64,000 nucleotides of DNA from Shewanella metallivivens (lineage in GTDB: Bacteria; Pseudomonadota; Gammaproteobacteria; Enterobacterales; Shewanellaceae). Location: the NCBI RefSeq assembly GCF_028750675.1, contig NZ_JAQQPZ010000015.1, positions 348,358 through 412,357 on the forward strand, written 5' to 3'. Shown here one piece after another: positions 37,263 through 40,394 of the stretch (the stretch's first letter is position 1; each line of letters begins with the position of its first letter). Both the position numbers and the translations under genes were made by a program. Under the pieces are notes generated by a model. The model ran no database searches. It worked only from the letters and a program-made list of their open reading frames with translations, and had not been told where the DNA came from.

Positions 37263-37289
37263 AAAAAGCTGGCTTAGCCAGCTTTTTTT
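37263..37289 (+). terminator. Terminator after the DUF481 gene
   Basis: Stem AAAAAGCTGGC / GCCAGCTTTTT with a TTA loop and T-run, 16 bp after the stop codon. Confidence 0.9.
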
Positions 37290-37545
37290 ATGTCCGTGTT
37301 TCGAGAGAGTAGAGACGTTGTGCGTGTCATTACGATTTTTACCTGCAGACATAGCGAAGAGCATGGATGTAGTTGGCATTATTCGCTTTGTTATGGTTCA
37401 GTGATACATAGCTCATAAAACCGTCATATTCGAGGGGCTGTTCACGTAATAACAATCTTATTAGCTTGTTTTTATGGCATTTATTCGAATTCGCATAGGT
37501 TTAGGAGTATACTTTTTTTATCAGTAGCGACGCTGAGACAGTACC

Positions 37546-38289
37546 ATGCAAATAGGATGTTGTTGGTTTGATAAAGAGCGACGTTTGTTAACTGATCAGG
37601 CAAAATCGACTCAGTGGCATTTGAACGATCATGAATATTGGGTGCTAGAGCAATTAGTTCTGCATCGGGGCCAAGTTGTGCCATTAACTACGCTTCAAAC
37701 CGTAGTGCTTGACAGCGGTGCCCATCAATTACCACATAACGAGCTTGTCAGCATTATTTATCATATTATTGATTACTTATGCGCCAAACATTCTAACCTT
37801 GTAGAATACATCCCACAGCAAGGTGTCATTCTTTATCCCGCCACGCAGGGTAAACATACCAAAATACTCGACTTACCTAACCGCTTACTGTCTTGGGGGC
37901 AGTATGGGATTATTATTGTGGCATTATTGGTCGTGCTACTGTTTGTGCTATCGAACCTTAATCCCCCATTATTTGCCAAAGCCGACGTTATAAGACAAGT
38001 GCTCACAGCAAATGGGCAGATGGTGCAATTATCAGTATTTGATAATCAATCGCCACAAGATGCTATTTTGCATGCCGACTGCTTATCGAATCAACTACAA
38101 ATGTGTCATGAGGTTCGCTGGAACGCTATTAGCGCCGCGATTTCTACTGATCGCCATTATGTTAGCTTTATTTTGAGCCAGTCGGAGACGCAATCATTAC
38201 AGTTTAAAAACATTAAATTAGCTGTAGATGATATGCATTCGCCATTTATCACTCAAGAATGGCTTCATAAGGTGCTTATTTGTGGCTAA
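37546..38289 (+). CDS. Membrane-bound winged-helix transcriptional regulator, ToxR/CadC-like
   Basis: The 247-residue protein has a trans_reg_C winged-helix domain at about 25-98: LNDHEYWVLEQLVLHRGQVV, a helix SIIYHIIDYLCAKH at the place of the recognition helix, and the wing VEYIPQQGVILYP. A single membrane segment follows (about 119-137, YGIIIVALLVVLLFVLS), then a periplasmic domain of about 110 residues with two cysteines (ADCLSNQLQMCHEV). That is the layout of ToxR/TcpP/CadC, which sense outside the membrane and bind DNA inside. The recognition helix is poor in basic residues, so DNA binding needs testing. It overlaps the next gene's region. Confidence 0.72.
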   Translation: MQIGCCWFDKERRLLTDQAKSTQWHLNDHEYWVLEQLVLHRGQVVPLTTLQTVVLDSGAHQLPHNELVSIIYHIIDYLCAKHSNLVEYIPQQGVILYPATQGKHTKILDLPNRLLSWGQYGIIIVALLVVLLFVLSNLNPPLFAKADVIRQVLTANGQMVQLSVFDNQSPQDAILHADCLSNQLQMCHEVRWNAISAAISTDRHYVSFILSQSETQSLQFKNIKLAVDDMHSPFITQEWLHKVLICG

Positions 38290-38299
38290 TAGGATAGGA

Positions 38300-38875
38300 G
38301 TGAAGTGGCGAAAAAGAGCGCGGCGATTATTGCAATCAAAGCGGGGCAAGTTGTTGTTTGTATTAACGTGGGTGTTTGTCTTATTTGCCTTAACTCATGT
38401 GCTTGAATATTTTGTTCCTCCGCATCAACAATGGCATTTGTCTTGTCGTGCCGATGGCTATTTTGACCCGCAACAAGCTCAGATAACGTCCTCAGTTGTT
38501 AGTGAATTATTGTTAACCTTCACACTTGAATATCAAGATGCTGCCTTACGTTACCATTTGGGTAATGAGTCATTACCGGCCGAATCGATTGTGCTGCAAG
38601 GAAATGTGGTAAAGGTCGATTTTGGCGCCTTAAATTACGCATTACAAATGCAACTAAAAAGTAAAAAGTTAAATAATGACAGTATGTTACTTGACTATTT
38701 GTTAAATGAATTAGCGGTAGGTGAATCACAACTCCTTGAGGGTGATTTATTGCCATTGCAGGTGCAAATCCTTAATGCTAATGATGATCAATTGCGGGCA
38801 ACCTTAACGTTTATACCCAGTAACAGCATATGGTCTTGTGAGATAATCCCGGCAGTTCTGCCTCAGCCACATTGA
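38300..38875 (+). CDS. Single-pass membrane protein partner of the ToxR-like regulator
   Basis: The 191-residue protein starts (GTG 38300, AGGA at 38291-38294) with a basic stretch MKWRKRARRLLQSKRGK, then one membrane segment (about 16-36) and a periplasmic domain with two cysteines (HLSCRADG and SIWSCEI), ending after WSCEIIPAVLPQPH. GTG 38282 is an alternative start and would overlap the upstream stop. Size, topology and position directly after a ToxR-like gene resemble ToxS, the periplasmic partner of ToxR, but I see no sequence likeness that proves it. Confidence 0.62.
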   Translation: MKWRKRARRLLQSKRGKLLFVLTWVFVLFALTHVLEYFVPPHQQWHLSCRADGYFDPQQAQITSSVVSELLLTFTLEYQDAALRYHLGNESLPAESIVLQGNVVKVDFGALNYALQMQLKSKKLNNDSMLLDYLLNELAVGESQLLEGDLLPLQVQILNANDDQLRATLTFIPSNSIWSCEIIPAVLPQPH

Positions 38876-38942: not shown

Positions 38943-40394
38943 GTGGCAAAAGTTAAAGTAAAACAAGAAGAAGCGTTATCAATTAAATTTAGCCATCAAA
39001 TGGCTCCAGGGGATCAGCGTACATTTGATTTGTACTTCTATTTGCCTACAGAGATGGGGATCGGTTCACACACCCTCGATGAAGAAGAATATTATCATAG
39101 CGGTATTTTAGGCCGTCGTTCATATTACTCTAAAGGTTTGCACCTGCCGCTGGTTCAATCACGTTTCATTAGTTTAAACAAACGGACCATGGAAGAGTTT
39201 CGTTTATATCTTAATTTATTTGCCTATCAATTTGCCGTCGCCATTGAGACTGATGGTAAAGAGCTTCGCCAAAAAAGTGATGCCAGTGAGTTTTATTTGG
39301 CATTAGACGAACTGTGTGATGTGGTGTTGCAATTACTTAAAAAATTTCGTCGTAATGAACCGAGCGATCCAAAGTGGAAGTCGTATTTTGAGCACGCAGA
39401 TAATTACCTTTCGTGGTTTTGTGAGCAGCAATTACTTAAAATATTAGCTCATTCGCCTCGCAGCTCAGACTTTAGTGAGGTAAAAGATAAAGCTTTGGAT
39501 TTATGTCGTAGCGAAAACTATTATCGCGAACAAGTGTGTAAATACAATTCGATGCAAACCCAGCAAGATGCGAATCGGATATCGAATAAAATGTTGTTGC
39601 TGCGACGCCTTATCCAACAAGGCGTGGTATTAAAAGAAGAGCTAAAACCACTTGGTGTTGGGCTAAAAAAGTTTGTAACAGGCCTTGCAACCGGTTTGGT
39701 GATGCTTGTCGTGTCGGCATTAATTATTAAAGCCCAGGGCTTTTTTAATGGCCTAACCCTGACCCTAGTCCTTACATTGGCGGTAATTTACGGATTCAGG
39801 GAAATCTTTAAAGAAGACTTTCGTAACGCAATGTGGCGTTTTATTCAACGCGGGCGTCCACGTTGGAGCCGTATTTTACGTGACACAAGCACACAAGCTA
39901 TTGTTGCTAAACAACTGGTTTGGCTTGAGTTTATGCGTTCGCAAGACATTCCAGATACCGTGTCTGAAATCATGAAGCATCGAAATAGCCAAAACAAGGT
40001 CGACTCGACAGTGTTGCATTACCGTATTGCGACTAAAGTGGCGAATAAACCCTTTGAGGCCGGATATTCTGAAATTCAAGAGCAAGTTAACTTTAGCTTA
40101 GTGCCATTTGCTCGTCATTTAGAACGTGGCAAAGCCAAAATCTACAAAGAGTCTGACGGTAATATCAGTAATGAATCTGTTGAGCGTCGCTATCAAGTCA
40201 ATCTTGTTGCAGTGTTACGAGATGGCAAGCAACAGCCAGAGTATGCTCGCTTTAAAGTCACGATGAATCGCTCAAGTATTGTAGAAATTACCGAAAGTAA
40301 ATTGCCTGATAACATCCAGCCTTTTACATCTGAAGCTGACAGCAATTTAAGCGAAGAGACTCAAGTCGTTGATCACCAACAGGTCGACCCCTGA
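38943..40394 (+). CDS. Large membrane protein of unknown function
   Basis: The 483-residue protein starts at GTG 38943. The N-terminal 240 residues are soluble and helical, with FDLYFYLPTEMGIGSHTLDEEEYYHSGILGRRSYYS near the start and several Cys. Two membrane helices lie at about 243-263 and 268-286, and a soluble C-terminal region of 190 residues ends in an acidic tail. Both ends should face the same side, most likely the cytoplasm. It is 67 bp after the ToxS-like gene on the same strand. I do not recognise a family; it appears as a conserved hypothetical in this genus. Confidence 0.75.
   Translation: MAKVKVKQEEALSIKFSHQMAPGDQRTFDLYFYLPTEMGIGSHTLDEEEYYHSGILGRRSYYSKGLHLPLVQSRFISLNKRTMEEFRLYLNLFAYQFAVAIETDGKELRQKSDASEFYLALDELCDVVLQLLKKFRRNEPSDPKWKSYFEHADNYLSWFCEQQLLKILAHSPRSSDFSEVKDKALDLCRSENYYREQVCKYNSMQTQQDANRISNKMLLLRRLIQQGVVLKEELKPLGVGLKKFVTGLATGLVMLVVSALIIKAQGFFNGLTLTLVLTLAVIYGFREIFKEDFRNAMWRFIQRGRPRWSRILRDTSTQAIVAKQLVWLEFMRSQDIPDTVSEIMKHRNSQNKVDSTVLHYRIATKVANKPFEAGYSEIQEQVNFSLVPFARHLERGKAKIYKESDGNISNESVERRYQVNLVAVLRDGKQQPEYARFKVTMNRSSIVEITESKLPDNIQPFTSEADSNLSEETQVVDHQQVDP

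Follow-up and report, generated by a model that had tools for sequence, protein, structure and literature searches.

A putative co-component membrane sensor pair of Shewanella with an altered DNA-contact face in its winged helix

Two genes of Shewanella metallivivens, A and B, very probably encode a co-component membrane sensor, and this assignment is well supported by the sequences and the predicted models. A and B overlap and share their inheritance. In the clade of this copy the winged helix is changed on the face that would contact DNA, so that the output there is probably not ordinary ToxR-like operator binding. The pair lies in the window, that is, the whole stretch of 64,000 nucleotides that was analysed, and shows the following features.

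37504..37513, + strand: GGAGTATACT box upstream of A, likely a -10 region
37546..38289, + strand: gene A, reading frame of 247 aa; winged helix, one membrane span and periplasmic alpha-beta domain
37546..37842, + strand: winged-helix domain of A, residues 1-99 (predicted model, fold and profile matches)
37735..37776, + strand: recognition helix of A, residues 64-77, without Lys or Arg (model helix, charge count, alignment columns)
37801..37833, + strand: wing of A, residues 86-96 (model strands 86-89 and 93-96, alignment columns)
37894..37953, + strand: membrane helix of A, residues 117-136 (predicted model)
37987..38286, + strand: periplasmic domain of A, from about residue 148 (model, order b-b-a-b-b-b-a)
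38104..38106, + strand: Cys187 codon of A (Cys in 74/74 rows)
38269-38274, + strand: AAGGTG, Shine-Dalgarno-like, before B (our own reading of the letters)
38281..38283, + strand: Cys246 codon of A, penultimate residue (Cys in 74/74 rows), overlapped by the GTG start of B
38282..38875, + strand: gene B, 197 aa when started at GTG; single membrane span, then lipocalin-like barrel
38339..38410, + strand: membrane helix of B, residues 20-43 (predicted model)
38444..38446, + strand: Cys55 of B in the first strand, 51-58 (Cys in 74/74 rows; model strand)
38837..38839, + strand: Cys186 of B in the last strand, 182-188 (Cys in 74/74 rows; model strand)

The original prediction described A as a winged-helix protein with one span and a Cys-containing periplasmic domain. 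The reading frame is in place and the predicted model (mean pLDDT 83.6, pTM 0.42) agrees; the winged helix, whose absence would speak against the prediction, is present in it. In the periplasmic domain, the model places strands at residues 148 and 159, a helix at 170, strands at 194, 205 and 218, and a helix at 237. Three Cys are periplasmic (179, 187 and 246), and Cys179 is kept in just 10 of the 74 rows. The model of B (mean pLDDT 83.2) consists of the helix 20-43 and eight strands; the fifth and sixth strands are separated by a helical segment (135-152). The models of A and B were each made from one 36-row alignment, with all sequences from one genus.

A single-pass protein with two periplasmic Cys had been predicted directly after A. 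This was confirmed, with the start moved to GTG 38282. Of 74 distinct full-length pairs, 58 have a GTG at that place, precisely 8 nt before A ends, which makes this codon rather than ATG 38228 the very likely start of B. In 67 of the 74, the codon for the C-terminal Cys of A is overlapped by a start codon in the frame of B. Counted from the GTG, Cys55 and Cys186 are the only Cys of B. The 74 pairs come from a collection of loci with 83 distinct A frames, from which seven without family B downstream and two short ones with B (L030 and L067) were excluded; one of the seven, L090, does not belong to the family. In L030, from S. benthica KT99, both A and B are cut short, and L148 of genome G440 is the same A frame. 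A CadC-type one-component regulator, which acts as a single protein with no partner gene, does not fit, as a family B gene lies directly downstream in 76 of the 83 A frames.

The window's A alone matched no Pfam family at E<=1, whereas Trans_reg_C was matched by 28 of 36 A-family members at the same threshold (best 1.1e-9). Thus, the weak sequence likeness noted earlier holds for the single sequence and not for the family. When a profile of the 36 members was compared with the PDB, the best matches were the cytoplasmic domains of ToxR (1.4e-6 to 2.1e-6), narrowly ahead of OmpR-family regulators (from 4.3e-6); TcpP followed at 1.2e-5. In the fold comparison with VIA-align, A residues 1-99 matched ToxR (8b4d_C) with Z 12.7, rmsd 2.2 and 96 aligned residues, and OmpR reached Z 12.3. 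OmpR and other OmpR-family rows are tied within 1 of ToxR in this list, which covers residues 1-100 only and is filled by the winged helix; that the periplasmic domains of VtrA and ToxR are absent from it therefore carries no weight.

For B, the best fold match was VtrC. Residues 49-189 were aligned by VIA-align to 5kev_B with Z 11.0 and rmsd 3.2 (120 aligned, 6% identical), and ToxS gave Z 10.2 and rmsd 3.2 for 8alo_B (123 aligned) and Z 8.6 and rmsd 4.0 for 8u2f_A (122 aligned). The best unrelated lipocalin reached Z 7.8. The sequence profile of B had no meaningful match in the PDB, and Foldseek gave none at E<=0.001 (best VtrC, 6.9e-3). None of the 36 B members was matched by the Pfam model of ToxS (PF17323) or of FidL at E<=1. 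In the genus, the ToxS model matched one of 60 genomes, at other places, and none of 185 genomes of the class; no control genome matched in either search, which leaves the negative for the class without weight. The one Shewanella genome with ToxS matches is G003 (L090 and L091), and in L090 a ToxR-like frame, apart from the window's family, stands beside the match.

Kinch 2022 (PMC9214523) defined a co-component superfamily that comprises ToxR/ToxS and VtrA/VtrC; Shewanella is absent from its main text. In most, not all, of the published pairs the genes overlap at the C-terminal Cys codon, and the periplasmic domains of VtrA and ToxR have the order b2-a-b3-a (PMC9214523). Several of the families have Cys in the first and last strands of the partner and close to the C-terminal end of the first protein, and Cys at those positions form disulfides in models and structures of the superfamily (PMC9214523). 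The Shewanella pair is alike in gene order, in the overlap at the Cys codon, in the winged helix and one predicted span each, in the element order of A (the order of elements only) and in an eight-stranded lipocalin-like partner with Cys in its first and last strands. It differs in that Shewanella has two paralogous cassettes, one of which has lost the DNA-contact signature. VtrA/VtrC of V. parahaemolyticus has overlapping genes as well; however, VtrA has no disulfide, and B shares 6% identity with VtrC in the fold alignment. The proposed ToxR/ToxS-like topology is therefore supported by profile, predicted fold, gene order and Cys positions. As a family the sensor pair is new, as had been suggested; as a kind it is not, since it fits the superfamily defined in 2022.

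Among 129 genomes of the genus, the A profile was found in 120 (E<=1e-10), a count in which a few matches, for example in G479, are to the winged helix of some other protein, and the B profile in 117. Counted from the table, two or more B matches were present in 83 genomes, one in 34 and none in 12. In 197 genomes of the order, B was found in 10; nine belong to Shewanella and the tenth to a different genus of the family. A was found in 18 of the 197; seven of these lie outside the family, where mainly the winged helix and span were matched. By this distribution of sequence matches, the A/B pair is a Shewanellaceae family. Among 30 loci found in genome contigs, 29 have a Shewanella title. The remaining one (L006) is a 6 kb contig titled Marinomonas phaeophyticola, in which A is 93% identical; it is probably Shewanella contamination. 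Our limited literature search found no Shewanella co-component system.

In a quick tree with several long branches, cassette 2 formed one clade of 29 rows (SH-aLRT 99) with a canonical recognition helix, and the window's A was placed within cassette 1 in a clade of 21 rows (SH-aLRT 96); 24 rows belong to the rest of cassette 1. The window's A is 23% identical to the A of the second cassette in its own genome (A2), and B is 16% identical to B2. Over all row pairs of the 74 cassettes, the identities of A and B correlate at 0.92, a value confounded by shared descent. Among rows whose A is less than 70% identical, the nearest B was of the same cassette class in 74/74.

The second cassette of the own genome lies at G000:C5. 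Next to it, in divergent orientation, is a gene whose product has a Tat signal and two CxxCH motifs. This neighbour presumably resembles the split-Soret diheme cytochrome family, and a Pfam search with it gave no match. A split-Soret diheme cytochrome is listed as SO0939 of S. oneidensis in a part of PMC3623810. In the A of this cassette and of cassette 2 in G025 (L051 5041-5862 and L066 4614-5462), a C-terminal extension runs past the Cys and the overlap is lost. The window's cassette is followed by a 483-aa protein without a Pfam match of note (38943-40394), which is also found after the second cassette of tandem loci (e.g. L018, L024 and L028) and not after cassette 2 of the own genome. Residue 6 of A (37561-37563) is a cytoplasmic Cys near the N terminus; it is present in 21/21 rows of the window's clade, 23/24 of other cassette 1 and 27/29 of cassette 2.

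The recognition helix had been described as unusually poor in basic residues, and this description was borne out. The window's A has no Lys or Arg in residues 62-79 and a single one in residues 62-99. In the matching stretch of 36-38 residues, 16 OmpR-type domains of the same genome each have at least 5, with a median of 6.5; the genome has 17 such domains, and the A of the second cassette was left out of the comparison. The net charge of the winged helix is -4 in the window's A, with a median of -5 in its clade. R96 of ToxR is reported as important by NMR and conservation in a section of PMC8517210, and T99 and Y105 as required for DNA binding in a section of PMC6733452. The latter two appear to correspond to T111 and Y117 with an offset of 12. 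At the positions of R96, T111 and Y117, which were transferred by eye from the profile alignment, the window's A has Ile75, Tyr88 and Val94.

Position R96: Arg is found in 29/29 rows of cassette 2, and Arg or Lys in 17/24 of other cassette 1. The 21 rows of the window's clade have Lys in two, Arg in none and Ile in 12.

Positions T111 and Y117: Thr is kept at T111 in 29/29 rows of cassette 2, 5/24 of other cassette 1 and 0/21 of the window's clade. At Y117, cassette 2 has Tyr in 29/29 and other cassette 1 has Tyr or Phe in 24/24; the window's clade has neither in any of 21 rows, with Val, Ala or Ile instead. Since T111 is mostly changed in other cassette 1 too, only R96 and Y117 separate the window's clade from it.

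When 39 loci were classed by their nearest row, 26 genomes fell in the window's clade. Arg is present at R96 in one of them (G447) and Lys in two, and none has Tyr or Phe at Y117. Pairwise identity of the recognition helix averages 0.36 both in the window's clade and in other cassette 1, against 0.75 in cassette 2. Within the winged helix, no part is less conserved in either cassette-1 group; in cassette 2, no segment is more conserved. From these comparisons, control of transcription through DNA binding seems doubtful for the window's copy. A rule that the A of cassette 1 (A1) is low in basic residues only beside a second cassette is not strict: 25 of the 26 clade genomes have at least two B and G223 has one. 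The link also fails in the other direction, because L023, L027 and others keep basic helices beside cassette 2.

Selection on A was estimated by the Nei-Gojobori method from pooled pairs, which are not independent, and two segments of one group were saturated. In the window's closest group, dN/dS was 0.03-0.17 across segments. For the recognition helix, three groups gave 0.166, 0.050 and 0.128, and for the wing 0.027, 0.037 and an undefined value. One 27-residue segment had 0.336 (6 non-synonymous and 4 synonymous changes); all others computed were below 0.19. The winged helix of the window's A is thus still under purifying selection.

Target operators adjacent to the pair had been considered as a check, and none upstream of the window's A was convincing. 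Scans of the upstream region for promoters (4 against 5.8 expected) and terminators (2 against 1.5 expected) stayed at the shuffle level, and its repeats were weak except for a terminator-like hairpin at 37263-37287. Nine aligned upstream sequences have GAGTATAC in common, and the exact 10-mer GGAGTATACT occurs in 5/21 clade rows (shuffle expectation 0.0). Many A genes are preceded at 59-78 nt by a GATCACAG box, which by eye lies about 18-20 nt before a -10; presumably it resembles half of a CRP site. The box was found in 24/29 rows of cassette 2 (one at 203 nt), 10/24 of other cassette 1 and 0/21 of the window's clade; in the own genome it is at G000:C5:199876-199909. The upstream alignment of L007 has no GATCACAG box. 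We dropped the idea that GATCACAG is an operator that disappeared when the DNA contacts did: 6/21 rows of the window's clade carry GATCACAA at the same distance, and absence of the box therefore does not follow contact loss. A genome search for the box plus a -10 gave 5 places versus 3 in a reversed control. Therefore, no regulon could be called.

Relatives have lost parts of the system. We re-searched 23 of the 129 genomes, hand-picked for differing or odd A/B counts; since not every odd-count genome was taken, the following counts are lower bounds. A cassette-1 frame that ends shortly after the span was found in at least 12 genomes: eight open frames of 154-175 aa, three more divergent ones of 141-144 and one of 142 in G020. 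Such frames, reduced to winged helix and span with no partner beside, are L159-L165, L028, L029, L153 and L168-L170. In the stretches fetched from 11 of the 12 genomes (G453 was left out), no family B stands beside the sensorless frame. Apart from G020, each of the 12 genomes has a full-length A besides, with a single B match; G020 has neither B nor a second A, and therefore counts against a reading in trans. Between the winged helices of L028, titled S. insulae, and L029, titled S. aquimarina and identical in protein to L165 of G033, there are 5 non-synonymous and 31 synonymous changes (dN/dS 0.033). Other pairs of sensorless frames gave 0.07-0.16, and the 29-residue tail of one pair 0.42.

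A different arrangement was found in G228, G244 and G005 (L155, L156 and L157). An A1 winged helix with its span adjoins a sensor chain, and B follows. The second chain has a span and a cassette-2-like periplasmic domain without a winged helix; in G005 the first frame continues to profile position 170, with a stop beyond. No further cassette-2 winged helix was found in these three genomes, either at the loci or genome-wide at E<=1e-10. The winged helix of the first chain gave dN/dS of 0.095 and 0.108, with the third pair saturated. For the span and periplasm of the second chain the values were 0.04-0.055, and its N-terminal 36 residues were looser (0.22-0.36). By these values, both chains evolve under purifying selection.

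In ToxR/ToxS, strand 5 of ToxR completes the barrel of ToxS and a bile acid is bound in the barrel pocket, as described in a part of PMC10624426. By analogy with this pair and with VtrA/VtrC, the periplasmic domain of A would complete the barrel of B, whose pocket would bind a small, probably lipid-like molecule, and the complex would pass the signal through the span of A to the winged helix. In the window's clade, A may then act through protein contacts or on an altered DNA target. The complementary losses, together with the constraint on the remaining parts, are the reason to consider that A1 and A2 act jointly. We tentatively propose a two-cassette co-component system in which chains in mixed complexes divide the labour between sensor and DNA reader. 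In the window's clade, A1 would keep the sensor and its partner without DNA contacts and signal through an intact A2; elsewhere, A1 is reduced to winged helix and span. In the three genomes with split chains, A2 lacks the winged helix and A1 most or all of the sensor, and reader and sensor would be on separate chains. G020 and G223 fit joint action poorly. To our knowledge, from a limited literature search, no co-component system has reader and sensor in trans. TcpP and ToxR are a precedent for two membrane winged helices acting together; both are reported DNA binders in the relevant part of PMC6733452, whereas in Shewanella one may not be.

About as likely as joint action, and to be taken seriously, is that A binds DNA specifically at a different operator with a rebuilt contact face. 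The low clade dN/dS in recognition helix and wing argues that the surface is maintained, and a variable recognition helix is not special to the window's clade, as other cassette 1 has the same identity of 0.36 with 17/24 rows basic at R96. Against this stand the one Lys/Arg in residues 62-99, where 16 own OmpR-type domains have at least 5, the charge of -4 (clade median -5) with all three of R96, T111 and Y117 changed, and a recognition helix whose conservation is the highest of any segment in cassette 2 (0.75) but the lowest within the winged helix for the window's clade (0.36). The same charge loss at the DNA face, and the cassettes 1 that are broken or reduced in other species, could suggest a decaying paralogue without remaining function. 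We regard this as very improbable, since dN/dS is below 0.19 in all computed segments but one (0.336), and the cassette has retained Cys187, Trp192, Cys246, B and, for the most part, the overlap. As the rows compared were chosen as full length, their open frames alone prove nothing.

The Cys pairs of A (187-246) and B (55-186), which lie near the strands that would pair, are most likely structural disulfides, judged by analogy with the superfamily. That they are thiol switches, with redox as the primary signal, is unlikely. Their presence in 74/74 rows would fit such a role, as would the gene for the Tat-signal protein with its two CxxCH motifs next to cassette 2 in the own genome. However, disulfides are formed at these Cys positions in superfamily models and structures (PMC9214523), and this cytochrome-like gene does not adjoin the window's cassette. 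Hardly credible is that the pair is a true ToxR/ToxS orthologue. Its winged helix is nearest to ToxR, by a narrow margin, it has the penultimate Cys, and its downstream partner has a barrel that matches ToxS at Z 10.2. Yet none of 36 B members has a ToxS Pfam match, which occurs in only one of 60 genus genomes and elsewhere in it, B is as near or nearer to VtrC than to ToxS, and the ToxR contact residues are lost, with Ile, Tyr and Val at R96, T111 and Y117.

If the pair is a co-component sensor as proposed, a superfamily of virulence control would extend to environmental bacteria. The natural series of part losses would offer a handle on how a membrane-bound winged helix relays a periplasmic signal to DNA, and may bear on whether sensor and reader must share one chain.
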